From a virus, in the IMG/VR virus record IMGVR_UViG_3300021341_000003, positions 1 through 37,954 of that record: 37,954 nt of DNA. One strand, given 5' to 3'. Position numbers and translations under genes: made by a program. The notes beneath the pieces are model-generated. The model made no database searches and was not told where the DNA came from. It saw only the letters and a program-made list of their open reading frames with translations. Numbering within the stretch: the stretch's first letter is position 1; every line of letters starts with the position of its first letter. Positions 6,894 to 37,839 of this stretch are shown here, piece by piece.

Positions 6894-8521
6894 TTGAGAA
6901 GGGGCCGTGCGACAAGTGCGGCTCCTCCGACGCCTGTGCGGTGTACACTGACGGACACAAGTTCTGCTACAGCTGTGACACCTACTTCCACCCGGATGGT
7001 TCCGATGGTTCCTCAGCTGGACCACGCAAGGCCAGACCGGAAGACCTAATCGACGGCTCCGTCACCGACCTCCGCGCCCGCAAGCTCAACCAAGAGACCT
7101 GCGGCAAGTGGCGGTACGAGACGGGTTCGTTCAAGGGGCAACCTGTCCACGTCGTGAACTACTGCGACAAGGACGGCCACGTTGTGGCACAGAAGCTCCG
7201 TTTCCAAGACAAGTCCTCCATGCCGTGGCTCGGCAACAAGAAGGAGGCGGCACCGCTCTACGGCCAATGGCTGTGGAAGAACGGTGGTAAGCAGGTCATT
7301 GTCACCGAGGGTGAGCTGGACGCATTGTCCGTATCCCAAGTGTTCGGTAACAAGTGGGCTGTTGTCTCGGTATCAGGTGGCGCAGCTGGCGCTCACCGTG
7401 ACGTCGAGAAGGGCATCGACTTCCTGACCAAGTTCGACCGGGTCGTGTTCATGTTCGACATGGACGAGCCGGGCCAGGACGCAGCACGTCGGTGCGCATC
7501 CATCCTCCCTCCAGGTAAGGCACACATTGCCTCCCTCCCTCTGAAGGACGCGAGCGACATGCTCATGGCCGGACGTGTAAAGGAGATCAACGACGCCTGC
7601 TGGAACGCACGGGAGTACAGACCTGACGGCATCGTGTCGGTAGGGGACGTTCGCGACAAGGCGATCACCCCGTCCGTTATGGGCCGCAAATACTTCGTAC
7701 CCGGAATGACCGAGGCAACCTTCGGTATCCACGATGGCTACGTCATCATGATCGGTGCGGGTACGGGTGTCGGCAAGACCGACGCCCTGTCGGAACAGAT
7801 CGCCATGCAGCTGGATGAAGAGGAGGAGCCAATCGGCACCATCTTCCTCGAGACCCCAGCACCGGACCTCGTCAAGAGGATCGCCGGTAAGCGCAAGAGC
7901 AAGATGTTCCACATTGCTGACGGCAGCTGGACCCAGGATGAACTGGAGGAAGCTGTCGATGAGATCAGCTCCACCAACCGGCTCTACCTGTATGACAGCT
8001 TCGGGTCGGCAGACTGGAACCAGATCAGGTCAGTCATCACCCACTTCGCCGTGGGCTACAAGTGCAAGCACATCTACCTCGACCACCTCACAGCGCTCGC
8101 TGCGATGGAGGACGACGAGAAGAAAGCTATCGAGCAGATCATGGCTGAGCTGTCGGGCATTGCCCAGCAGTACGGCGTGGTCCTCTGGGTCGTCTCCCAC
8201 CTAGCCACCCCCGAAGGGAAACCTCACGAGGAAGGCGGGCGGGTCACCATCCGGCACTTCAAAGGCAGCCGCGCCATCGGCTTCTGGTCGCACGTCATGA
8301 TTGGTCTCGAGAGAAACCAGCAGGACGACGACGAGTACGAGCGCACTGTCACAACCTTCCGTATCCTGAAGTATCGGGACTACGGCAGAGCGGTCGGTCA
8401 GACCTTCCGCATGGCTTACGATCTGGAGACGGGTCGTTTGCACCCAGCACCGGCCAAGGACGAAGCCAAGCAACACGGCTTCACCACGGACGGACCCCCC
8501 ATCAGCACAGAGGACTTCTAA
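6875..8521 (+). CDS. DNA primase-helicase (T7 gp4-like)
   Basis: 548 aa (T7 gp4 has 566). Order of parts: zinc-binding domain with Cys12, Cys15, Cys31 and Cys34; primase/TOPRIM region with TEGELDALS (about residue 145) and FDMDEPG (about 194); then a RecA-type hexameric helicase with Walker A GAGTGVGKT (about 294-302) and YLDHLTAL (about 402). The acidic, Phe-ended tail (STEDF) matches the T7 contact with the polymerase. It unwinds the fork and makes primers for the lagging strand. ATG 6875 lies inside the end of the previous small gene. Confidence 0.95.
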   Translation: MSESELIEKGPCDKCGSSDACAVYTDGHKFCYSCDTYFHPDGSDGSSAGPRKARPEDLIDGSVTDLRARKLNQETCGKWRYETGSFKGQPVHVVNYCDKDGHVVAQKLRFQDKSSMPWLGNKKEAAPLYGQWLWKNGGKQVIVTEGELDALSVSQVFGNKWAVVSVSGGAAGAHRDVEKGIDFLTKFDRVVFMFDMDEPGQDAARRCASILPPGKAHIASLPLKDASDMLMAGRVKEINDACWNAREYRPDGIVSVGDVRDKAITPSVMGRKYFVPGMTEATFGIHDGYVIMIGAGTGVGKTDALSEQIAMQLDEEEEPIGTIFLETPAPDLVKRIAGKRKSKMFHIADGSWTQDELEEAVDEISSTNRLYLYDSFGSADWNQIRSVITHFAVGYKCKHIYLDHLTALAAMEDDEKKAIEQIMAELSGIAQQYGVVLWVVSHLATPEGKPHEEGGRVTIRHFKGSRAIGFWSHVMIGLERNQQDDDEYERTVTTFRILKYRDYGRAVGQTFRMAYDLETGRLHPAPAKDEAKQHGFTTDGPPISTEDF

Positions 8522-9192
8522 TGGAACGACACCCGTCTCCCCTCGAGCGTGACTTCTCGCTCACGACCCTCATGCACGCCAAGCTGCGCGCTGAAGAACG
8601 CCTCGCCCCTGCGCGAGATGTAATGGACAAGCTCTCTGAGCTGCTATCCACCAAGGTTATCCTTGCCGGTGGTGCTGTCCGCGATGCTCTGCTCGAGCGT
8701 CCAATCAAAGACTACGACCTGTTCGTCTCCGAAGATGTGTTCCCTGCGTGGAAGGCTATCATGGACGGTGACCATGCGCCGGGCTCCTTCGCGGATCATG
8801 TATCCACATGGGCCATACCGCTCGTCAGCGGGACATACGAAGACACTGCCTTCGGCTCCGAGATCGCCTCGATCTACGAGTTCCCGCACCCAGACACAGG
8901 CACCGAAGTGCAGGTGATGTTCCTCCGCAAGGCGGTCGTCGCCAACCAGAAACTGTCAGACTACGTATCTCGCATGGACCTCGGTCTCAGCAAGGTCGCA
9001 GTCCGCAGCGATGGTGATTGGTACATCTCCGAGCAATTCCGTGAAGACGTCCGCAATCGGAACATGACGTTTGTCGCGCGCGACCTGGGCTCCCAGGACG
9101 TCGAGCGCTCAACCCGTCGCTTCACCCGTCTCCACAACAAGTACCCCGGCTACACGTTCGTCGTGCCGGAAGAACTGGCAACACAGGGATAG
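8521..9192 (+). CDS. Nucleotidyltransferase of the poly(A) polymerase / CCA-adding head type
   Basis: 223 aa. The signature ILAGGAVRDALLERPIKDYD (about residues 47-66) is the G-G-x-V-R-D ... D-x-D active site of class II tRNA nucleotidyltransferases and poly(A) polymerases; both metal-binding acids are present (Asp63, Asp65). The rest is too short for the neck, body and tail of a full CCA-adding enzyme, so the substrate may be something other than mature tRNA ends. The start overlaps the primase stop, so it is part of the replication operon. Possible roles are tRNA end repair, RNA tailing, or modification of a host factor; these are inference. Confidence 0.8.
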   Translation: MERHPSPLERDFSLTTLMHAKLRAEERLAPARDVMDKLSELLSTKVILAGGAVRDALLERPIKDYDLFVSEDVFPAWKAIMDGDHAPGSFADHVSTWAIPLVSGTYEDTAFGSEIASIYEFPHPDTGTEVQVMFLRKAVVANQKLSDYVSRMDLGLSKVAVRSDGDWYISEQFREDVRNRNMTFVARDLGSQDVERSTRRFTRLHNKYPGYTFVVPEELATQG

Positions 9193-17105: not shown

Positions 17106-17181
17106 TCCCACCTAGCTCAGATGGTAGAGCACCCGGCTGTTAACCGGAAGGTCGATGGTTCGAAGCCATCGGTGGGAGCCA
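17106..17181 (+). tRNA. tRNA-Asn(GUU)
   Basis: 76 nt with encoded CCA. The acceptor TCCCACC pairs with GGTGGGA. The D arm is normal, the anticodon loop is CTGTTAA (anticodon GTT), and the T arm is GATGG-TTCGAAG-CCATC. The outermost anticodon-stem pair is a C-A mismatch; all else fits. One base separates it from the next tRNA. Confidence 0.95.
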
Positions 17182-17182
17182 T

Positions 17183-17258
17183 GTTGCCATCTTCTAAATG
17201 GTCAGGAAACCAGACTTTCAATCTGGCAATCCGGGTTCGATCCCCGGTGGCAACACCA
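17183..17258 (+). tRNA. tRNA-Glu(UUC)
   Basis: 76 nt with encoded CCA. The acceptor GTTGCCA pairs with TGGCAAC. The anticodon stem CCAGA/TCTGG surrounds loop CTTTCAA (anticodon TTC). The T arm is CCGGG-TTCGATC-CCCGG. It lies in tandem with tRNA-Asn, upstream of the capsid gene, and is probably processed out of the late transcript. Confidence 0.95.
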
Positions 17259-28205: not shown

Positions 28206-30020
28206 ATGGAAACATCCACCTCGTCCCGTGCGCTGGCCCTACCGGCCTCCGAAACGGGCGCAGTAACCGGGGACCCGCTCAAGGCTGACTTCAGGAACTT
28301 CCTGGTGGCCATGTGGCGGTTCCTCGGCCTGCCCAAACCGACACCCCTGCAGCTGGACATCGCGTATCACCTGCAGCATGGCCCCAAGCGTGACATCATC
28401 CAGGCTTTCCGGGGTGCTGCCAAGTCGTGGATCACCGCAGCCTACGTGCTGTGGCGGCTCTACTGCGACCCGCAGCTCCTGATCCTGGTCGTATCCGCCT
28501 CGGGTAACCGCGCAGCGAAGTTCACACGCTTCTGTCTGGACATCATCATGCGCTGGGAACGCCTCCGGCACCTCCGCCCCAAGCCCAACCAGCGGCAATC
28601 CTCACTCGGCTTCGACGTGGGACCCGCTGAGGACAGACCTGACCAGCAGCCCAGCATGGAAGCTAAGGGTATCACTGGTCAGATCACGGGTGGCCGTGCT
28701 GATGTTATCGTCGCGGACGACGTGGAGGTCCCCCGTAACTCCGACACGGAGACCAAACGGGAGAAGCTGCGGGAGCAGATCAGGGAATTTGACGCTATTC
28801 TGCGCCCTGACAATGCCGACGCGGTCATCAAGTACCTGGGTACGCCCCAGACTGAAAGCTCCATCTACTCCACACTGTCCACTCGTGGCTACGCTACGCG
28901 CATCTGGCCCATCCTGTTCCCCGATCCCTCCAAGCTGGACACGATCTGGGGCTCTCAGTTGGCCCCATCAGTGCGCAATGCAGTGATCCGCAGGCCGGAA
29001 CTCGCCGGTAAGACTGTGGAGCCCACCCGCTTCTCCAATGAGGACATCGCTGTCCGCCGTCTCTCGTACGGCTCCATTGGTTTCGCCCTCCAGTTCATGC
29101 TGGATACCCGAGCAGGGGACGCTAACCGCTTCCCTCTGAAGCTCAACGACCTCGTCGTGACCTCCTGTGGGGACCCTGAGAAGGGACCCGAGAGCCTGGC
29201 ATGGGCCGGTTCGAAGGAATACGCGATCGAGGACCTGGAGCACTTCGGGATGGAAGGGGATAGGCTGCACAAGCCTGCCTTTCTCAGTGACCATTGGGTC
29301 CCCTGGCAGTTCTCCCTCATGGCTATCGACCCCTCTGGCCGAGGCTCTGACGAAACCGCCTACTGTATCCTCCGCTTCCTCAACGGACGCCTCTTCCTGA
29401 CCTCCTTCGGGGGTATTGCAGGGGGCTATGACGAGGCAGTCCTGGAGAAACTGGGGAAGATCGCAGCAGTGAACCGCGTGAACCTTATCGTGGTCGAGGA
29501 CAACTTCGGCCAGGGCATGTTCGCCCAGCTCCTGAAGCCTCATGTGCACTGCACCGTGGAGACCGAACGGGTCACCACCCAGAAGGAACGCCGGATCATC
29601 TCCGCCCTGGAGCCTGTCATCAGTGGCCACCGCCTTGTCGTCGACAGGGAGGCCCTGGAGAAGGACCACGAGGTGTTCTCTCTGGACGTCAACGAGGACC
29701 GTGAGGAGGCAGTCGGGGAGGAGGGGAAGAGATACTACTCTCTCACCTACCAACTCTCCCGCATCACCTTCGAGAAGAACTCTCTGCCTCACGATGACCG
29801 CATCGACGTCCTGGGTCTCGCAGTCAAATACTACGAGGACCGCCTGGACCTCGCCACCGGCACCCTGGAGATCGCCTCCGAGGAGCGCCGCATCGAGTTC
29901 GAGATCGAGGAGTTCCTGTACGGCATCTTTGAAGGGACCCGCGAAGGGCTCCCCAACACTGGCCACATCGTGATCGGTCAGATGCCTGGCAACCCCAACA
30001 TCCTCAACCGCAACCGCTAA
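28206..30020 (+). CDS. Terminase large subunit (T7 gp19-like)
   Basis: 604 aa (T7 gp19 has 586). ATPase: Walker A-type QAFRGAAKSW (about 66-75), Walker B VIVADDVE (about 167-174). Nuclease: IDPSGRGSDETAY (about 374), VVEDNFGQG (about 428) and HDDRIDVLGL (about 529) supply the acidic metal-binding residues. It pumps DNA into the prohead and cuts the concatemer. Confidence 0.95.
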   Translation: METSTSSRALALPASETGAVTGDPLKADFRNFLVAMWRFLGLPKPTPLQLDIAYHLQHGPKRDIIQAFRGAAKSWITAAYVLWRLYCDPQLLILVVSASGNRAAKFTRFCLDIIMRWERLRHLRPKPNQRQSSLGFDVGPAEDRPDQQPSMEAKGITGQITGGRADVIVADDVEVPRNSDTETKREKLREQIREFDAILRPDNADAVIKYLGTPQTESSIYSTLSTRGYATRIWPILFPDPSKLDTIWGSQLAPSVRNAVIRRPELAGKTVEPTRFSNEDIAVRRLSYGSIGFALQFMLDTRAGDANRFPLKLNDLVVTSCGDPEKGPESLAWAGSKEYAIEDLEHFGMEGDRLHKPAFLSDHWVPWQFSLMAIDPSGRGSDETAYCILRFLNGRLFLTSFGGIAGGYDEAVLEKLGKIAAVNRVNLIVVEDNFGQGMFAQLLKPHVHCTVETERVTTQKERRIISALEPVISGHRLVVDREALEKDHEVFSLDVNEDREEAVGEEGKRYYSLTYQLSRITFEKNSLPHDDRIDVLGLAVKYYEDRLDLATGTLEIASEERRIEFEIEEFLYGIFEGTREGLPNTGHIVIGQMPGNPNILNRNR

Positions 30021-30449: not shown

Positions 30450-30477
30450 TCAGATCCACCTACGGGGCGGGCCAACA

Positions 30478-30494
30478 GCACGCATACGCGCGCG
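30478..30494. repeat. Alternating purine-pyrimidine tract ending in (CG)n
   Basis: Seventeen bases in strict purine-pyrimidine alternation, ending CGCGCGCG, about 30 bases after the last late gene. (CG)n is the sequence most prone to form Z-DNA under negative supercoiling. Confidence 0.6.
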
Positions 30495-30659
30495 ACGGGC
30501 TCGCTCCACGGGTCTCTCCGGTACCAACTGACCGGCCCTCCTTACTGCCTCTCCTGGGGCATCCTGAGCGTTCCTCTGAGGGGGACACTGAGGGCGATGT
30601 TTGGGGGTCATATTTTCGAGGTACAGAAGTATAGCGGAGAGAGTGAGATACCCCCCGTG

Positions 30660-30925
30660 GGGGCGGGCACGCATATGAGCGCGACACACGCACGCCTGCG
30701 CACGTACACGCATGGGCACGCCTGTGTGCGCCTGCCGACACGCGTACGCGACACGCCTGCGCTCGATCCCCAACAACCACGGGCCTTGCCAACGGATTGC
30801 ATATCCCTCGCACGTCGCGGCGGGCCTGCGCGTGTGCGCCTGGGTGTGCCTGCGCGTGTGTATGCGCGGGGTTCCGCTCTGTGCGCGGGCGCGATGTGTG
30901 TGTGCTTGTGCGCGCATATGGGCGA
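30660..30925. repeat. GC-rich alternating tract with quasi-inverted halves
   Basis: The left half (about 30665-30770) is rich in CA/CG steps, the right half (about 30810-30925) in TG/GC steps, so the two are rough reverse complements (for example TGCGCACGTACACGCATG at 30697-30714 against TGCGCGTGTGTATGCGCG at 30851-30868). Both of these 18-mers alternate purine and pyrimidine without a break. The tract could form Z-DNA or a long imperfect hairpin. It is unlike any coding part of the window. Confidence 0.6.
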
Positions 30926-30933
30926 TTTTTTCG

Positions 30934-30965
30934 GTTAACAGACGGTTACTGTTGGTGATCGTCAC
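30934..30965 (+). promoter_or_regulatory. Early-region motif, copy 1
   Basis: GTTAAC, 11 bases, then GTTGGTGATCGTCAC (30951-30965). Two further copies lie at 31031 and 33267 with spacing of 12 and 11 bases. TTAACA could serve as a -35 box with conserved ATCGTC at -10 distance; a repressor operator is equally possible. Confidence 0.45.
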
Positions 30966-31030
30966 GCTTAATGGGCCGGCTGATGCAAGAAAAAACCTCA
31001 ATGTTTTCATCGGCTTGTGAACTTTCTTCG

Positions 31031-31064
31031 GTTAACGTGCATTTTTTTGTTGGCAATCGTCAAC
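31031..31064 (+). promoter_or_regulatory. Early-region motif, copy 2
   Basis: GTTAAC, 12 bases including a T-run, then GTTGGCAATCGTCAAC (31049-31064), which is itself a GTTG-N8-CAAC inverted repeat. The spacing TTGGCA-N17-TTATCT gives a weak sigma70-like alternative reading. Confidence 0.45.
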
Positions 31065-31177
31065 AGCTGTGGTTATCTCCAAATCGTCGGCAGGACGGAA
31101 ACGCCTTACCGACCCGAGGCCGCCAAATCACCTCCTCGGATTAGCCCCGCATTTGGGCACTAAGGTGGGCACCCTCA

Positions 31178-31194
31178 GTCACCTAACGAGTGAC
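31178..31194. promoter_or_regulatory. Inverted repeat GTCAC-N7-GTGAC
   Basis: GTCAC (31178-31182) and GTGAC (31190-31194) around CTAACGA, about 100 bases before the ribozyme. The size suits a dimeric regulator such as the MarR-like protein of this phage, but this link is inference. Confidence 0.35.
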
Positions 31195-31288
31195 AGAACG
31201 GGGTTGTTAGTTTGGTCTCAGCGGGCAAGTGCCCCTCCCTCGGCTGTAGGGGAGTAACGGAGATATGAGACCGGCGAGGGGACGACAC

Positions 31289-31361
31289 TAGTGTCACGGG
31301 CTTGATAAGCAACCTGCATCAGCCGCCCGTCTGATGAGCCTTAAGGAGAGGCGAAACACTA
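31289..31361 (+). ncRNA. Type III hammerhead ribozyme
   Basis: All parts of a hammerhead are present in order. Stem III 3' strand TAGTGT (31289-31294); cleavage nucleotide C 31295 in the GTC context; stem I ACGGGC (31296-31301) with GCCCGT (31325-31330); stem I is extended past an internal loop by TGAT/ATCA (31303-31306 with 31318-31321); core CTGATGA (31331-31337); stem II GCC/GGC (31338-31340 with 31350-31352) around a 9-nt loop; core GAAA (31353-31356), whose last A opens stem III ACACTA (31356-31361). Stem III is open at the ends, which is type III. Every conserved core base is intact, so cleavage after C31295 is expected. Loop II carries the AAGGAG Shine-Dalgarno sequence of the first early gene, and its ATG (31361) begins on the last paired base of stem III. 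Confidence 0.92.
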
Positions 31362-31534
31362 TGTCTAGCATGAGCCAACGCGATTACTTCCACACGGTTG
31401 AGGGCAAGCAGCGCCAGCTGCGCGAGCTGAAACATGACCTGTACCAGACGGAAGATTGGGAGCAGCACGACGAGATCAAAGACCGTATGCGCGCACTCAA
31501 AGCAGAAATCCGTGCCATGCAGGCACCCAACTAA
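31361..31534 (+). CDS. First early protein, small and helical
   Basis: 57 aa from ATG 31361. The Shine-Dalgarno AAGGAGAGG (31343-31351) lies inside loop II and stem II of the hammerhead, and the start codon begins at the edge of stem III. An ATG at 31334 falls in the ribozyme core and has no ribosome binding site. The protein is highly charged and helical (KQRQLRELKHDLYQTEDWEQ; IKDRMRALKAEIRAMQ), probably a helical hairpin. I recognise no family. As first early gene it may act on host enzymes or defence. Confidence 0.75.
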   Translation: MSSMSQRDYFHTVEGKQRQLRELKHDLYQTEDWEQHDEIKDRMRALKAEIRAMQAPN

Positions 31535-31544
31535 GGAGGAAACC

Positions 31545-31640
31545 ATGAAAGCCATCGCACTAAGCGCCTTCGGGCTGGCAGTCTGGGTGGGGGTAGTGGG
31601 TTCTATCTTTGCCCAGATTGTTGACAACCTCCCACAATAG
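31545..31640 (+). CDS. Very small single-TM protein
   Basis: 31 aa from ATG 31545 behind a strong AAGGAGG. Almost the whole protein is one membrane helix (AIALSAFGLAVWVGVVGSIF) with a short polar end (DNLPQ). It resembles the many tiny membrane proteins of phage early regions; a role in superinfection exclusion or membrane modulation is possible. Confidence 0.6.
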   Translation: MKAIALSAFGLAVWVGVVGSIFAQIVDNLPQ

Positions 31641-31656
31641 GCAATAGGAGACATTT

Positions 31657-31974
31657 ATGTACAAGCCAGAGAGCAGGCCCGGCGAGGCCGCAGTCGCCAA
31701 GCGCGTTATCCGCGAGTGCCTCAAGCAGGGGTACACGGTGAGCGTGCATGACGGGGAGGAGTGGGCTGTGAAACAGTCAGACGACTTCGACGCAATCTTT
31801 GACGCGGTGGGGGAGACCGATAGCGACACCCTCAGACTACGCAAGGGGGCGAACAAACCCACAGGCGAGCTGTACCTGATATGGGGCAACGCGGCGGACG
31901 GTAGCGAGCTGCTGGCAGACCATACCGACAATGAGGCTATGAACGCGATTTACAGCGCGGTCTACCCAGAGTGA
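31657..31974 (+). CDS. Conserved-looking phage protein of unknown function
   Basis: 105 aa. Order of features: helical start with AKRVIRECLKQGYTVSV, then HDGEEWAVKQSDDFDAIFDA, and GELYLIWGNAADGSELLADH near the end. This arrangement (DGEEW, TDSDTL, WGN, DNEAM) looks like a small alpha/beta protein that I have seen across unrelated phages without known function. Acidic overall. Confidence 0.65.
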   Translation: MYKPESRPGEAAVAKRVIRECLKQGYTVSVHDGEEWAVKQSDDFDAIFDAVGETDSDTLRLRKGANKPTGELYLIWGNAADGSELLADHTDNEAMNAIYSAVYPE

Positions 31975-32036
31975 CCAACGGTTAGGGGAGGGAGGCAACG
32001 CCTTCCCCTTTCCTCTGTTCACTGAAGGAGGCAGCA

Positions 32037-32246
32037 ATGCCGAAACACTACACACCAGCCCGCCTTCCTGCCCACGCATGGAACGTCGGGGACTTCCTCC
32101 TAGTGGGAGGCAAGGTGAGACGCATCAAAAGCCTGCAAATCATAGGCGACAAGGTGCACGTCAAGGTCGCGTGGATGCCCAAGTACACGGGCATATTCCC
32201 GGCCTATCAAGAGCAGACAATCGGAAAGGCGGTGAAGCATGGCTAA
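32037..32246 (+). CDS. Small basic beta-rich early protein
   Basis: 69 aa from ATG 32037, with GGAGG nine bases upstream. The centre (WNVGDFLLVGGKVRRIKSLQ and KVHVKVAWMPKYTG) suggests a small SH3- or OB-like barrel with basic charge, perhaps nucleic-acid binding. The end overlaps the next gene by eight bases. I recognise no family. Confidence 0.6.
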   Translation: MPKHYTPARLPAHAWNVGDFLLVGGKVRRIKSLQIIGDKVHVKVAWMPKYTGIFPAYQEQTIGKAVKHG

Positions 32247-32415
32247 GCGCAAGGCAACAGTCCGCCTAGAGCGGCACCGGTACGCGCCAGAGCTGAATAA
32301 GCTGGCCCTTGTGGACATGAAAACAGGGGAGGTGCTGGGGGAGAAGGCAACGCCGCAATGCGTGACCATTGGCGAGGCTGAAGAGTACCTGAAGGAGAGG
32401 GGGGAGACCCTATGA
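32239..32415 (+). CDS. Small early protein
   Basis: 58 aa from ATG 32239. A basic start (MAKRKATVRLERHRY) is followed by KLALVDMKTGEVLGEKATPQ and an acidic helix (TIGEAEEYLKERGETL). The stop overlaps the next start (TATGA). I recognise no family. Confidence 0.6.
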   Translation: MAKRKATVRLERHRYAPELNKLALVDMKTGEVLGEKATPQCVTIGEAEEYLKERGETL

Positions 32416-32669
32416 AACGCACACTGCAAGGCCCTTGCGGGTACCGCGTTGAGCTGGACACCGACAAGGTGATCCCTGACGATCCCGGCGCGGATACTCC
32501 CGCCCTTATCTATGACCGGTGGGGCAACGTCGGCACCTACTGGTGTGCATGGGACACGGGCTACGTTGAGGAGCGCTTCATCAGCGCCAAGGCGGTGCAC
32601 GAATGGCTCGATGAAATCAATGAGGAAGTGAACGCCTTCCTGTACCCGGAGGAAACCGGCAATGTTTGA
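32412..32669 (+). CDS. Small acidic early protein
   Basis: 85 aa from ATG 32412. A central WGNVGTYWCAWDTGYVEERF with several aromatic residues and a C-terminal acidic helix (AVHEWLDEINEEVNAFL). Overlaps its neighbours on both sides. The acidic character would suit a DNA mimic, but that is only a possibility. Confidence 0.6.
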   Translation: MKRTLQGPCGYRVELDTDKVIPDDPGADTPALIYDRWGNVGTYWCAWDTGYVEERFISAKAVHEWLDEINEEVNAFLYPEETGNV

Positions 32670-33264
32670 ACGTGACCAAGCACTGATTGCGGAGTACGCG
32701 CAAGCCTCGCCTGAGAACATGGCAGGGGTATACCGTTTCGTGCTCGCTACCATACAGCAGCCCCTCGAGCAGGTGGGTGAGATCAAGGCTGACTTTGAGG
32801 AAAAAGGGGAGGCGTCTCGCTACGCCTTCGCCAGTAAGCGGACGGCTTTGCAGTGGCTGGCTGACCCGGCCAATGTGGACAGCATGTATGCAATCGCGAT
32901 GGCCCGTAAAGAGGCGGGACGCGATGCCCTGCTGGCTGTGTTCGCTGAGCTTCCCGGCCTTGGCATTGTGAAGGCTGGCTTCATGGTGCAGCTGTGCTTC
33001 GGTGTGAGTGGGTGCCTTGATACCCACAACATGAAGCGGCTGGACATCAACCCTAACCGGTTCGCTGCGGCACGCTACAAGGGGGCCAAAACAGAGGCCA
33101 CTAAGCAGGCCATTCGTGACGAGTATCACGCGGCGGTCGATCGCCTGGGAGGGTGCGAGGCCCTCTGGAATAGCTGGTGCGATTACGTCGCCACCCTGAG
33201 ACCGGCCAAGTGGGAGAGTGGAGACGTGGTTTCACGCTACCATTCCGCCGTGATTGCAAATTGA
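32662..33264 (+). CDS. Helix-hairpin-helix protein, possibly DNA-glycosylase-like
   Basis: 200 aa, all-helical in appearance. The segment ELPGLGIVKAGFMVQL followed by GCLDTHNMKRLDINP (about residues 105-135) has the LPG-x-G helix-hairpin-helix and the trailing Asp of the HhH-GPD glycosylase fold, with the usual distance of about 20 residues between Lys and Asp. There is no iron-sulfur cluster motif, and the remainder is not an obvious match. If real, it could remove modified or deaminated bases from host or phage DNA. Overlaps the previous gene by eight bases and ends the first early group. Confidence 0.6.
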   Translation: MFERDQALIAEYAQASPENMAGVYRFVLATIQQPLEQVGEIKADFEEKGEASRYAFASKRTALQWLADPANVDSMYAIAMARKEAGRDALLAVFAELPGLGIVKAGFMVQLCFGVSGCLDTHNMKRLDINPNRFAAARYKGAKTEATKQAIRDEYHAAVDRLGGCEALWNSWCDYVATLRPAKWESGDVVSRYHSAVIAN

Positions 33265-33266
33265 TT

Positions 33267-33298
33267 GTTGACAGGTAGCCACAGTTGGCAACCATCAC
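33267..33298 (+). promoter_or_regulatory. Early-region motif, copy 3, before the second early group
   Basis: GTTGAC, 11 bases, then GTTGGCAACCATCAC (33284-33298), with the same 17-base offset as copy 1. TTGACA (33268-33273) is a perfect -35 box; ACCATC or CCATCA lies at -10 distance but is a poor -10. The element occupies the only intergenic gap inside the early block and is followed by TAAGGAG and ATG 33323. Confidence 0.5.
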
Positions 33299-33322
33299 AT
33301 ACACACATAAGGAGACCAACCC

Positions 33323-33973
33323 ATGACCAACGCCATTCAAATTGAGGACAACAACCCCGGTGGCATCCAGCCGTGGTCACGCCGGGCGATGCCCGTGGTG
33401 ATCTTCGCGGTGAGTGAGTACGCCGCTGACCATACCGACCCTGACGCCATCGAGGCGGGGATCATCAGTGACCTGACAAGGGCAGGCATCAAGGTGGTGG
33501 ACCTACATGGCGTCTACAAAGGCAAGCCTGAGCGCAGCTACATGGTGACCCTGAGCGATTACGAGGGACGGGTGCTGAACCGTATCGGCTACGCCCTGCA
33601 ATTCGAGGAGACAATCCTCCTCCTCGGATCACACCGCGACAGCCGCGCTCGGCGGGAAGCTACACTGTGCCACCCGGTGACACTGCAGGAGGTGGCTGCA
33701 CTGGGCTACATGGGGGAGGTGAAGGCGGAGGACCGTGACCAGTTCGAGGGTCTCACCACCCGCATGATTGGCGGGGAGGAACGCTACTTCACAGCCATGC
33801 CGTTCGCTGACTGGTGCAAGTACGAGGACATCAAGCGGGACGGTGTGCAGCTGGCTGAGCTGGGTGCTGACTGGCGCAACGCTTCCAAGCTGTGGACCTG
33901 CAGCACTGGGGTGCACTCGCCACGCCGGACGGCTGAGGAAAACATCGCCATCACCCAAGCAGGTGCAGCATGA
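33323..33973 (+). CDS. Early protein of unknown function
   Basis: 216 aa, the largest early protein, with TAAGGAG before ATG 33323. Alpha/beta in appearance: PVVIFAVSEYAADHTDPDA, GIKVVDLHGVYKGKPERSYM and EETILLLGSHRDSRARREAT. Motifs such as LLGSHRDS hint at an enzyme, but I recognise no family. Overlaps the next gene by four bases. Confidence 0.65.
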   Translation: MTNAIQIEDNNPGGIQPWSRRAMPVVIFAVSEYAADHTDPDAIEAGIISDLTRAGIKVVDLHGVYKGKPERSYMVTLSDYEGRVLNRIGYALQFEETILLLGSHRDSRARREATLCHPVTLQEVAALGYMGEVKAEDRDQFEGLTTRMIGGEERYFTAMPFADWCKYEDIKRDGVQLAELGADWRNASKLWTCSTGVHSPRRTAEENIAITQAGAA

Positions 33974-34308
33974 GGGGCAAGCAGACAGTATACGAATGGT
34001 GCATCGAGACCGTGTCGAAGGACGGGGACATCGTTGACCACAACCATCGCGACAAGCTGGAGAACTACCACGTAAGCGAGCTGCTCGAGGACGAGGAAGG
34101 TTACACCAAGCGCCTCGTGCTGGTGCGAGATGTGTTCAGCTACGGCGATCTGGTCTGCCGGTCATGGGCTTACCTGACTGGGCCTGACCGGGTGCTGCCC
34201 ACCCACTTCAACGACACCAGCTGCGACGTGGCACCTGTACCTAAGCGGTTCCCTCTGGAGCTGACCCGGTGGCGCGCAAACCTGAGAGCGAAGGGAGCTA
34301 AGACATGA
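33970..34308 (+). CDS. Early protein, hypothetical
   Basis: 112 aa from ATG 33970. It opens KQTVYEWCIETVSKDGDIVD and continues HNHRDKLENYHVSELLEDEE, a small alpha/beta layout seen in several phage early proteins of unknown function. C-terminal part is basic. Overlaps both neighbours by four bases. Confidence 0.6.
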   Translation: MRGKQTVYEWCIETVSKDGDIVDHNHRDKLENYHVSELLEDEEGYTKRLVLVRDVFSYGDLVCRSWAYLTGPDRVLPTHFNDTSCDVAPVPKRFPLELTRWRANLRAKGAKT

Positions 34309-34637
34309 CCAATGGCTACGAATACTACGAGGTCTGGCCCGTACGTAAGACGAAGAACGGTGGGGTCGAGCGCATCCTGCAACCATCACTCGAAGCGCTC
34401 GAGGCGTCAGGTGAGAAGCCAGACTTCTGGTCCCTGTACGGGGTGTACGGAGGAGAGGCCGAGGCCATCGGTGACTTCGTGTCATGGGAGGCAGCGTACC
34501 GGGTGATGAACCTGATCCTTGCCCCTCTGGCTGAGGTGCGTGACGTGCTCGAGTGCCACGCCTGTACCGGGAAGGGCGGCATCCTCCGCCACGTCGAGGA
34601 CATCATCAATCAATCATCCAATGAGGAGCGCTTCTGA
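34305..34637 (+). CDS. Early protein, hypothetical
   Basis: 110 aa. It starts MTNGYEYYEVWPVRKTKNGG and contains DFWSLYGVYGGEAEAIGDFV, then ECHACTGKGGILRH with two cysteines (CHAC) near the C-terminus. Its opening resembles the previous product (YEW..ETVSKDG against YEYYEVWPVRKTKNG), so the two may be distant duplicates. Overlaps both neighbours. Confidence 0.6.
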   Translation: MTNGYEYYEVWPVRKTKNGGVERILQPSLEALEASGEKPDFWSLYGVYGGEAEAIGDFVSWEAAYRVMNLILAPLAEVRDVLECHACTGKGGILRHVEDIINQSSNEERF

Positions 34638-34903
34638 TGGCTGCGAAGAAGTTCAAGGAGATCGAGGTGTACGGCATGAAGAAGATGCCGGACGGGAGCG
34701 ACGGCCTCGCCCCTCGGGAGGAGGTGGAATACTGGGACGTCTGTGTACGGGAGACCGAGGACACGGACGACCCGGAGTGGACCGGCGAGATCAACATTCT
34801 CGAGGAGTACGAGTACCTCACCGCTGAGCAGGCATCGCAGGTGGTGGTGGAGATGCGCGCCAAGTACCCGGACGCATCGGAAGACGATTGGATCACAGCT
34901 TAG
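34637..34903 (+). CDS. Small acidic early protein
   Basis: 88 aa. Opening KKFKEIEVYGMKKMPDGSDG then a strongly acidic centre (VCVRETEDTDDPEWTGEINI) and a helical end (TAEQASQVVVEMRAKYPDAS). Starts on the stop of the previous gene. High negative charge would suit an inhibitor of DNA-binding proteins; no family recognised. Confidence 0.6.
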   Translation: MAAKKFKEIEVYGMKKMPDGSDGLAPREEVEYWDVCVRETEDTDDPEWTGEINILEEYEYLTAEQASQVVVEMRAKYPDASEDDWITA

Positions 34904-34912
34904 GAGGGAACC

Positions 34913-35164
34913 ATGAAGACAGTTTATGTGGTGCTACAGACCAGCCTCGGAAACGACAGCCACGTCGCTGCGTTCTCCACCCTCGAGAAGGCGAGAGCGT
35001 ACGCCCTGAAGCTGACGCTCAACGTCGCCTCGGATCATGACCTGACCGAGAAGGTCGAAGGTCTCACCCATCATTCGGAAGTGAGCGGAGTGCTGTTCGA
35101 CAACGACGTGTACGACGGCGTCGAAATCCTCTCGCCCGACATCGACATCCACGCAGACCAGTAA
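34913..35164 (+). CDS. Small early protein
   Basis: 83 aa from ATG 34913 behind AGGAGGG. It opens MKTVYVVLQTSLGNDSHVAA then FSTLEKARAYALKL, a beta-alpha layout common in small phage proteins of unknown function that report or respond to nothing known. Acidic C-terminus (DGVEILSPDIDIHAD). Confidence 0.6.
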   Translation: MKTVYVVLQTSLGNDSHVAAFSTLEKARAYALKLTLNVASDHDLTEKVEGLTHHSEVSGVLFDNDVYDGVEILSPDIDIHADQ

Positions 35165-35175
35165 GGAGGCAGATC

Positions 35176-35346
35176 ATGCCGAAGTTCAAACTGCGCACCA
35201 GCATCCGCACCTACTACGAGATCGAGGTGGAGGCTGAGAGTGAGGCTGAGCTGAGTAGCGAGTGGCGCGACGTCATCATGGACGAGGGCCACGGCAAAGA
35301 GATCGACAGTGATGCAACAGATTTGGAGGAGATCATCCCATGCTGA
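35176..35346 (+). CDS. Small acidic early protein
   Basis: 56 aa from ATG 35176 behind AAGGAGG. Beta start (FKLRTSIRTYYEIEVEAESE) followed by an acidic helix-rich part (EAELSSEWRDVIMDEG; DSDATDLEEIIPC). The stop overlaps the start of the next gene. I recognise no family. Confidence 0.6.
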   Translation: MPKFKLRTSIRTYYEIEVEAESEAELSSEWRDVIMDEGHGKEIDSDATDLEEIIPC

Positions 35347-35552
35347 CACTCAAGGCGACGGCGCGTGCACTTCAACAGGGAGAGGAAGTGCGCGTGTCCC
35401 ACATTCAACACGGATACCGGGGCCAGGCGCGTAAGCTGGCACGGAAGAAGTACCGCATCGGGCAGACGGTGGAGGGCAACGTGGTCCTCTACAACCCACG
35501 CTTCGGTGCCTCCTCAGTGGTCCGCGACGTGGGCGATCGGAGGGCTGCATGA
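35340..35552 (+). CDS. Small basic early protein
   Basis: 70 aa from ATG 35340. LTLKATARALQQGEEVRVSH looks like a short helix-turn start, then HGYRGQARKLARKKYRIGQ is strongly basic and VEGNVVLYNPRFGASSVV is beta-rich. Nucleic-acid binding is plausible. Last gene of the tight early series; a looser region follows. Confidence 0.6.
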   Translation: MLTLKATARALQQGEEVRVSHIQHGYRGQARKLARKKYRIGQTVEGNVVLYNPRFGASSVVRDVGDRRAA

Positions 35553-35717: not shown

Positions 35718-36170
35718 ATGCACGTAAATGCAGCAGGAATGGAACTGCAGTTTGTCAATGGGGTTATGCTAATCCGCCTTGGAAGAGGAAGCGTATTAGT
35801 CTCATGGTGCAATGATTTCGGTCGGGGCTGGAAGAAGGAGGCAATCGACAATGAGCAAGAACGGGGACAGCGCTGGACGAATGGGAGGTGGGAGATCATC
35901 CTCTCACGCCGAGCGTCTAAGCGCCGAGGAAAAGGCACGGGCTCTGCGGGCTCGTCGGGCTCTGGCTCTCTTCATGGAGCAGATGCCGGGGGCGGTGGTG
36001 ACGGACGTAGCTCTGCTACTATCCATTGCCTCGGAACATATCGGGCAAGGGGAACATGCGGAGCGCCTGGGCCTGGACCGGAGTGGGGCGAGTGTAGCGG
36101 TGAGGCGGCTTGGACAAGGTGGCCGTGGCGCTTACAGGAAGGGCATGGACTGGGTCGCTTACGAGCCTGA
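35718..36170 (+). CDS. Hypothetical protein overlapping the regulator gene
   Basis: 150 aa from ATG 35718. The first 55 residues (MELQFVNGVMLIRLGRGSVL; SWCNDFGRGWKKEAIDNEQE) look genuine and lie in relatively AT-rich DNA. From about residue 45 the frame runs inside the MarR-like gene in another phase and becomes Gly/Ser/Arg-rich (GTGSAGSSGSGS), as expected of a shadow. The real protein may be the N-terminal part only, extended by loss of its stop codon, or a small activator partner of the regulator. Confidence 0.4.
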   Translation: MHVNAAGMELQFVNGVMLIRLGRGSVLVSWCNDFGRGWKKEAIDNEQERGQRWTNGRWEIILSRRASKRRGKGTGSAGSSGSGSLHGADAGGGGDGRSSATIHCLGTYRARGTCGAPGPGPEWGECSGEAAWTRWPWRLQEGHGLGRLRA

Positions 36171-36261
36171 CCCGAACGACGACCGAAGGAAGATACCTGT
36201 GTTGACGGCAAGTGGCGAGATGATGGTCCGCACCTTGCTTGACGCACTGGCTCCAAACTAG
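35851..36261 (+). CDS. MarR-like winged-helix transcription regulator
   Basis: 136 aa from ATG 35851 with AAGGAGG nine bases upstream; the frame is open further back without a better start. After a disordered start, LSAEEKARALRARRAL and a helical dimer-type part lead to a helix-turn-helix (ERLGLDRSGASVAVRRLGQG) and a MarR-type wing (YEPDPNDDRRKIPVLTASG) and final helix. MarR proteins bind short palindromes as dimers. Its place directly before the integrase suggests control of lysogeny, for which T7-like phages have no CI-type repressor. Binding sites and targets are unknown; inverted repeats at 31178 and the three-copy motif are candidates. Confidence 0.8.
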   Translation: MSKNGDSAGRMGGGRSSSHAERLSAEEKARALRARRALALFMEQMPGAVVTDVALLLSIASEHIGQGEHAERLGLDRSGASVAVRRLGQGGRGAYRKGMDWVAYEPDPNDDRRKIPVLTASGEMMVRTLLDALAPN

Positions 36262-36271
36262 GGGGGAACCC

Positions 36272-37291
36272 ATGAGTAAGACTGAAACGCTGCCCGCTGG
36301 GATGCACCAGCGGAAGGACACCGGCGCCTATACTGTTGACTATACCGATCAATCCGGCACTAGGCACCGTCGCTCATTCAAAACATTCGAGGCGGCACAC
36401 GCCCGGCTCAAGCAGCTGCAGGAAGCAGACGGTGAGGGCGGGGTAAACGAGCACGGCAAGGTGCGCACGCTTCAGGACGCACTCGACCTCGCCCTGAAAC
36501 GCTGGGACAAACAACGCGCGCCGCTCACCCAGCTGAAGAACGCCAAGGCAGCCATCGACTTCTTCGGTGAGAAACTGCTGGTCGAGTTCACGGTGGCGGA
36601 CATCCGTGCCTACAAGGCACACCTCGTGGCCAAGGGTAACGGAGACGGCACGATCAACCGGAAGCTCAGTGCCCTGAGTGTCATGTTCAAGGAGGCCATC
36701 GACGAGGGGGCCATCACATCCATGCCGCAGATCAAGCGGGTGCGTGAGGTCGCCAACCGTATCCGCTTCCTGACGGCGGAGGAGGAGGCCAAACTGGACG
36801 CCCTGATCCGGTACGTGAGCGAGGAGGCAGCGGACATCTGCCTGTTCCTGATCGACACCGGCCTGCGTGTGCAGCAGGAGGGACTGGCCGTGGAGGTGCA
36901 CCACATGGTGCGAGACCGTACCGGCAAGGTGCAGCTACTCGTCACTGACGGGAAGGGCGGCAAGGCACGGAGCATCTACCTCACGGCTCGCGCGGAGACC
37001 ATCGCAGCCAAGTACACAGAGCAGGCGAAGGAGGCTGGCCGGTCGCTGCTGTTCTCCCTGAACTACGACGCACTGTACCGCATCTTCGTCACCGCTCGGC
37101 GGAAGCTGGAGCTGGACGACGTGACCATCCACACCCTGCGCCACACCTGTGCATCCCGCATGGCCCAGCGCGGGGTCGCCCTCCAGGTCATCAAGGCGTG
37201 GATGGGGCACACATCTATCAACACGACCATGCGCTACGTCCACCTCGCGACGGAGCATCTGGTCTCAGCAGTGGAGGCAATGGAACAATGA
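36272..37291 (+). CDS. int: Tyrosine-type site-specific integrase
   Basis: 339 aa from ATG 36272 behind GGGGGG; an upstream in-frame ATG (36239) lies inside the regulator gene. N-terminal arm-binding-like part, core-binding helices (about 60-150), and a catalytic domain with Arg198 (DTGLR), Lys near 230 (GKGGKAR), His286-x-x-Arg289 (HTLRHT), His312 (MGHTS) and nucleophile Tyr322 (TTMRY). It recombines attP with the tRNA-Leu anticodon-loop site. The gene ends ATGA, overlapping the next start. Confidence 0.95.
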   Translation: MSKTETLPAGMHQRKDTGAYTVDYTDQSGTRHRRSFKTFEAAHARLKQLQEADGEGGVNEHGKVRTLQDALDLALKRWDKQRAPLTQLKNAKAAIDFFGEKLLVEFTVADIRAYKAHLVAKGNGDGTINRKLSALSVMFKEAIDEGAITSMPQIKRVREVANRIRFLTAEEEAKLDALIRYVSEEAADICLFLIDTGLRVQQEGLAVEVHHMVRDRTGKVQLLVTDGKGGKARSIYLTARAETIAAKYTEQAKEAGRSLLFSLNYDALYRIFVTARRKLELDDVTIHTLRHTCASRMAQRGVALQVIKAWMGHTSINTTMRYVHLATEHLVSAVEAMEQ

Positions 37292-37731: not shown

Positions 37732-37818
37732 GCGGGCGTGGTGGAACGGTAGACACGAGGGGCTTAAAACCCCTTTGCTTTCAAGGCAGTGCGGGTTCAA
37801 GTCCCGCCGCCCGCACCA
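37732..37818 (+). tRNA. Phage tRNA-Leu(UAA), intact
   Basis: 87 nt, class II with encoded CCA. The acceptor GCGGGCG pairs with CGCCCGC. Anticodon stem AGGGG/CCCCT around loop CTTAAAA (anticodon TAA, 37765-37767). Variable arm with TGC/GCA. T arm GCGGG-TTCAAGT-CCCGC. It has the same anticodon and loop as the host gene that the prophage interrupts, but differs from it in acceptor stem, variable arm and T stem, so it is no copy made by the insertion. It ends nine bases before the attR core. Confidence 0.95.
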
Positions 37819-37827
37819 GTACAAAAA

Positions 37828-37839
37828 GACTTAAAATCC
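37828..37839. other. attR: attR core
   Basis: Second copy of GACTTAAAATCC, the right host/phage junction. The bases to its left (GTACAAAAA) are phage DNA and cannot supply the 5' side of the tRNA. Confidence 0.9.

Follow-up and report, generated by a model that had tools for sequence, protein, structure and literature searches.

In the stretch of viral DNA analysed here, hereafter the window (37,954 nt, the IMG/VR virus record IMGVR_UViG_3300021341_000003), a type III hammerhead ribozyme sits at the head of the early region of an integrated temperate T7-like phage, and hammerheads of the same type recur at the same place in related temperate phages. It is likely that this hammerhead forms the 5' end of the early transcript of the prophage, where self-cleavage would trim the leader and, in relatives, would also cut the early polycistron. 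The hammerheads lie at defined spots of the early region, the processing of whose transcript is known from T7, and their pattern fits a role in the cutting of early mRNA. Their recurrence suggests that temperate T7-like phages cleave their early mRNAs by themselves and do not depend on a host enzyme for this step.

An Integrated T7-Like Prophage

Besides an RNA polymerase of the T7 type and a terminase, the window codes for a primase/helicase, a DNA polymerase, an exonuclease, a portal, a major head protein and tail proteins (profile matches), and the gene order is T7-like, namely T7-type RNA polymerase, primase/helicase, DNA polymerase, tail tube proteins and terminase. An integrase is located beside the early region, and the phage is integrated into a tRNA gene. 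The main features, all on the plus strand, are as follows:

116-127, +, attL core GACTTAAAATCC, in the anticodon region of the split host tRNA-Leu gene
137-2893, +, single-subunit (T7-type) RNA polymerase (protein family match)
28206-30020, +, T7-like terminase large subunit; in the integrated form, the final late gene ahead of the early region
31011-31288, +, leader 5' of the ribozyme, the expected 5' cleavage product
31361-31534, +, first early gene (57 aa), without a PHROG family
31361-35552, +, early genes, tightly packed or overlapping
35812-37291, +, transcriptional regulator (phrog_9665) and tyrosine integrase (phrog_1; 36239-37291), both from PHROG matches
37732-37818, +, intact phage-borne tRNA-Leu gene with anticodon taa, i.e., the same as the split host gene
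37828-37839, +, attR core GACTTAAAATCC, next to which lies the 3' half of the host tRNA-Leu gene

The 12-bp GACTTAAAATCC is present in the window at 116-127 and 37828-37839 only. When the outer flanks are rejoined at the att cores, a whole host tRNA-Leu gene (taa) is obtained, and neither end alone yields a tRNA; the window is therefore a complete integrated prophage. This agrees with an earlier note on the same DNA, made from the sequence alone, where an integrated T7-like phage had been recognised. No DNA similarity to phage records was detected for positions 30500-33300, and a close relative of the window phage was not encountered among them.

Some minor features of the window can be added. 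Two adjoining tRNA genes, i.e., Asn gtt and Glu ttc (17106-17258), are found amid the structural genes. The protein encoded at 8521-9192 has a weak match, just below the Pfam cut-off, to the head domain of poly(A) polymerase/tRNA nucleotidyltransferase. After the terminase region, positions 30450-30900 form a low-complexity stretch rich in GTGTGC/GCGCGC, possibly a virion end or terminal-repeat region.

A Hammerhead at the Head of the Early Region

The first element of the early region, between the terminase and the first early gene, is located at 31289-31361 on the plus strand and reads TAGTGTC/ACGGGC-loop-GCCCGT CTGATGA GCC-TTAAGGAGA-GGC GAAA CACTA (the first slash indicating the predicted cleavage site). 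Every base of the hammerhead core is present, and the parts are distributed as follows:

31289-31294, +, stem III 5' strand, i.e., TAGTG (31289-31293) and U16.1, pairing with 31356-31361 (TAGTG with CACTA at 31357-31361, plus the pair U31294-A31356)
31295, +, C17 of the GTC triplet, with the cut predicted at 31295/31296 from the NUH rule of the hammerhead core
31296-31330, +, stem I hairpin, i.e., ACGGGC (31296-31301) with GCCCGT (31325-31330) and an extension of TGAT (31303-31306) with ATCA (31318-31321), from sequence and RNA folding
31331-31337, +, catalytic core strand CTGATGA (sequence and RF00008 match)
31338-31352, +, stem II and loop II, GCC TTAAGGAGA GGC, with a Shine-Dalgarno sequence in the loop; stem II is GCC/GGC, or five pairs if U-A and U-G are included
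31353-31356, +, catalytic core strand GAAA (sequence and RF00008 match)
31357-31361, +, stem III 3' strand CACTA, whose final base is also the first letter of the first early gene's ATG

With the core CUGANGA ... GAAA and an NUH cleavage site, an open stem III and loop-closed stems I and II, the element is a type III hammerhead by core and topology, one which scores below the Rfam cut-off and whose cleavage is predicted. The claim of the earlier note that a complete hammerhead (core, GTC context and three helices) heads a T7-like early region is thereby borne out, all parts having been located after the terminase and directly before the early genes that start at 31361.

The type III model of Rfam (RF00008) covers 31288-31362 end to end with 37.4 bits (E=2e-6 for 701 nt searched against all 4227 families; E=1.6e-4 in a 54-kb search). 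Shared with RF00008 are all the core nucleotides, the helix order and topology and the GUC triplet; the window element differs by its long, internally looped stem I, the Shine-Dalgarno sequence in its loop II and a score under the Rfam gathering score of 48.5 bits, a cut-off that is an annotation convention and no biochemical definition. A default Rfam search does not list the element because its score is under this cut-off, and relatives are also below it, e.g., G001 with 36.3 bits or the prophage G110 of Brucella tritici with 35.1 bits (E=1.6e-5), the sole hammerhead match in a 5.2-Mb genome. Of the significant plus-strand covariance-model match that had been predicted, the significance was thus obtained but the curated threshold was not reached. 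A strict hammerhead descriptor returned exactly one site in the window (both strands), 31289-31361, and 0 matches in 100 mononucleotide shuffles of the window, in line with the earlier opinion that a chance origin is very unlikely.

By RNA folding, the minimum-energy structure consists of the three stems, the energy itself being unremarkable (z -1.7). Between loop I and loop II, the window shows 3 complementary bases only, with no clear contact for its long stem I; over 12 elements, the complementarity of these loops was slightly higher than for reassigned loops (p about 0.05) and higher than for shuffled loops (p about 0.01). As the loop-loop signal was just weakly above controls, it was not kept as proof of the fold. 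The stem I hairpin is shorter in relatives (17-20 nt), and an alignment of 13 type III elements by MAFFT misplaced stem III of the window on account of its long stem I; the stems were parsed by hand instead.

Upstream of the window ribozyme no sigma-70-like promoter was recognised, no boxA-like leader motif was found in the window, and neither Rfam nor the descriptor revealed a second ribozyme or another Rfam RNA in the early region (31361-35552). A perfect 12-bp palindrome, GACACTAGTGTC (31284-31295), ends at the cleavage site and could be an operator or a hairpin of the 5' fragment; absent from every relative, it was dropped as a part of the mechanism. In the untranslated stretch before the early genes (30926-31070) stand two imperfect repeats, TTTTTTCGGTTAAC and TTTCTTCGGTTAAC, possibly a promoter/operator pair, each followed by a GTTGG-GATCGTCA-like sequence.

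A Ribosome-Binding Site Inside the Ribozyme

AAGGAG at 31343-31348 lies in loop II of the window element; after a gap of 12 nt, the last pair of stem III contains the first base of the start codon (ATG, 31361) of the first early gene. With the Shine-Dalgarno sequence in loop II and the ATG in stem III, the ribosome-binding site is thus part of the window ribozyme. The same loop II arrangement is present in the Mycobacterium phage jiawei, and pattern scans for it returned ten viral contigs, three of which bear a real hammerhead (L285, L291 and L289); L285 and L291 carry temperate T7-like genes. In L289 (7190-7240), the Shine-Dalgarno sequence is in loop II and the ATG after stem III, on a contig without matches to the T7-like proteins of the window, so that the arrangement may extend beyond temperate T7-like phages. 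A first pattern search, for a loop II containing AGGA, picked up, in other phages, type I hammerheads close to tRNAs along with further unrelated sites, and was set aside.

Recurrence in Temperate T7-Like Phages

The loci of relatives were found via the terminase or the RNA polymerase, not via hammerheads, and roughly twenty temperate T7-like phages were covered. A type III hammerhead is present at the head of the early region in 11 of these, i.e., the window, three viral contigs (G001, G002 and G003), four integrated prophages (G110, G121, G247 and G817) and three cultured phages (RHEph01, RHEph21 and jiawei). The earlier note had regarded a hammerhead heading the early transcript of an integrated T7-like phage as something unusual, a view which does not withstand this recurrence. 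One extra base follows CUGAUGA in G002, G110, G121, G817, jiawei, L285 and L291. Stem III is of just 2 bp in RHEph01, RHEph21 and G247, and the activity of these copies is doubtful judging from their sequence. No recognisable hammerhead was found in LUZ100, ProddE, Lo5R7ANS, Pasto, YIMV22061, CRP-361, G288 and G344, i.e., about half of the temperate T7-like phages examined, and the element is therefore dispensable for this lifestyle.

Just 5' of the head hammerheads of four phages, a TTCTTTGACA motif resembling the boxA of alphaproteobacterial rRNA leaders was observed (RHEph21, L243 520-545; RHEph01, L247 638-665; jiawei, L249 rc about 320; L285, about 114), which may recruit host antitermination. 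At its left end (L098 rc 1-280), G003 carries tandem repeats of about 12 bp (CACCCTAGGCAC...).

Hammerhead Type Follows Position

Hammerheads are also present between early genes in G002, G003, G093 and RHEph01, and are absent there in the window. In G003, nine type II hammerheads come after the head type III element and occupy almost all the gaps between genes as far as the integrase, one per gap, and G002 likewise possesses a head type III and nine type II elements. The start of many type II elements of these two contigs falls at -2 to +25 nt relative to the preceding stop codon, the next start codon being usually 17-45 nt further. G003 shares one early gene with the window (48% identity), and the window is devoid of type II elements all the same. 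The cultured Rhizobium phage RHEph01 unites all three types in a single early region (L247 2572-2638), with a head element of type III, a type II between genes and a type I where the operon ends.

Altogether, the 13 head elements are all of type III, and the 26 internal elements comprise 25 of type II and 1 of type I. The association of type with position gives a Fisher p of about 1e-10, or 8e-9 without the loci found by hammerhead patterns, both values being overstated, since related phages were counted as if independent. In three rounds with shuffled early regions, five weak matches appeared (best score 13), against 42 in the real ones, nearly all with a score of at least 13.

Proposed Mechanism and Alternative Explanations

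In coliphage T7, RNase III cuts the early transcript at its head and between the early genes, which results in hairpin-bounded mRNAs. The predicted cut sites of the hammerheads share this placement, both at the head (the window and ten others) and between genes (the four phages with internal hammerheads), whereas the agents differ: in T7, a host protein acts on RNA duplex sites and leaves a 5'-phosphate and a 3'-OH; in the window, a predicted self-cleaving RNA would leave a 5'-OH and a 2',3'-cyclic phosphate. Hammerhead cleavage generates the cyclic phosphate on the 5' fragment and the 5'-OH on the 3' fragment. After cleavage, the ribozyme body remains with the downstream mRNA for type III and with the upstream mRNA for type I, while type II cleavage provides a 3' hairpin for the upstream mRNA and a 5' hairpin for the downstream mRNA.

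In the window, host RNA polymerase would copy the early region, and the RNA would fold and cut itself after C31295. The upstream leader, ending in a 2',3'-cyclic phosphate, would be discarded, and the first nucleotide of the remaining early mRNA would be 31296, bearing a 5'-OH, with the stem I hairpin directly at this 5' end. Loop II together with the stem III 3' strand would then provide the ribosome-binding site and the start of the first gene. From hammerhead chemistry and the known biology of RNase E, such a 5'-OH early mRNA would be a poor substrate for 5'-end-dependent RNase E. We infer that the element would cut in the cell and stabilise the mRNA, and that it would be the equivalent of an RNase III site. 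In relatives, type II hammerheads would cut between early genes, and the whole arrangement would work like the T7 RNase III sites, free of protein. Type III would be used where just the downstream gene needs an end, type II where both sides do, and type I after the last gene; the observed placement of the types is what would be expected if their job is to give structured ends to each early mRNA.

Stated more broadly, and tentatively, as an account whose chances we put a little short of even, temperate T7-like phages may have replaced the early-mRNA step of host RNase III by self-cleaving RNAs, the type of which would be set by position (type III for the head, type II for the gaps between genes and perhaps type I for the operon end), so as to provide structured ends to each cistron without a protein; in some phages, including the window, the head ribozyme would double as ribosome-binding site, with translation and self-cleavage in competition. 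If true, a classic step of T7 biology that depends on the host would here be replaced by one without protein, and the ribozymes that incorporate a ribosome-binding site would be naturally occurring equivalents of the switches engineered from ribozymes. Cultured carriers, namely RHEph01, RHEph21 and jiawei, make the idea open to direct testing.

The built-in ribosome-binding site can also be read as a translation switch, where ribosome binding and self-cleavage are mutually exclusive or where cleavage frees the start codon. Consistent with such a switch are the five elements (window, jiawei, L285, L291 and L289) whose loop II holds the Shine-Dalgarno sequence and whose ATG follows at a distance of 9-12 nt, within stem III or adjacent to it, the complementarity of loop I (TCCT) to the Shine-Dalgarno sequence (AGGA) in jiawei and L285, and the modelled unpairing of the window AUG, from 0.02-0.17 before cleavage to 0.20-0.44 after. 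The modelled change is, however, absent or reversed in jiawei, L285, L291 and L289, most head hammerheads have a separate downstream Shine-Dalgarno sequence, and three of the five examples come from searching for that very pattern. Since cleavage, as modelled, releases the AUG modestly in the window and not at all in the others, cleavage-gated translation was dropped as the main mechanism, and translation gating was kept as a rival, which we consider rather unlikely.

Less probable still is that the hammerhead cuts without lasting benefit, as a neutral relic or an easily gained motif. Many phages are without a hammerhead, the copies with a 2-bp stem III may be inactive and, according to a 2011 study, hammerheads arise readily from random RNA (PMC3088659), but the element is found at the same place in eleven phages, the type-by-position pattern is strict, and the stems are perfect despite unrelated sequences, with 0 mismatches in 177 parsed pairs, a count for which the search itself required pairing. 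As for an inactive, hammerhead-like sequence due to chance, the single copy in the window and the sub-threshold Rfam score would fit, but the intact core, the empty shuffles and the same location in relatives make it highly improbable.

Relation to Known Systems

Hammerhead processing of phage RNA is not a new idea. In Perreault et al. (2011; PMC3088659), thousands of hammerheads were described, with clusters flanking prophage genes, and were proposed to cut long phage transcripts; tandem phage hammerheads of Agrobacterium, Azorhizobium and Clostridium cut in vitro, and the Agrobacterium set also in E. coli. The triple set of A. tumefaciens is arranged around ardA, marR and integrase, i.e., as in the relatives of the window, hammerheads flank phage genes, and this context would resemble the temperate T7-like early region. 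According to the same paper, the hammerhead of haloviruses HF1/HF2 (HHphage) lies, as in the window, directly ahead of an early polycistron, 13 nt before its first gene, and the mRNA 5' end was mapped within 3 nt of the cleavage site; unlike the window, this is an unrelated, archaeal lytic virus in a high-salt setting, with a core insertion near C3. In a later review (2017; PMC6155905), the role of prokaryotic hammerheads is considered open, with a persistent phage link.

The layout of the window, namely early genes, MarR-like regulator, integrase, tRNA-Leu and RNA polymerase, is that of LUZ100, Pasto and RHEph01 (PMC10134795); unlike the window, LUZ100 and Pasto have no hammerhead by the descriptor, and the LUZ100 paper does not mention ribozymes. 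For the hammerhead clusters of PMC3088659, the available part of the paper describes neither a T7-like early region, nor a type-by-position rule, nor an embedded ribosome-binding site. Among open-access papers, to which the search was confined, none was found that names both Autographiviridae and hammerhead ribozymes. To the extent of the checks made, three points appear new, namely the recurrent presence of hammerheads in the temperate T7-like early region, the type-by-position rule and the embedded ribosome-binding site.

When 90 type II hammerhead records were scanned with PF00940, T7-like phages accounted for a minority (5 of 90), which ruled out type II hammerheads as a T7-like-specific feature. 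Type I hammerheads were observed directly 3' of tRNA genes in unrelated phage contigs (L002 520-584 and L003 8753-8777).
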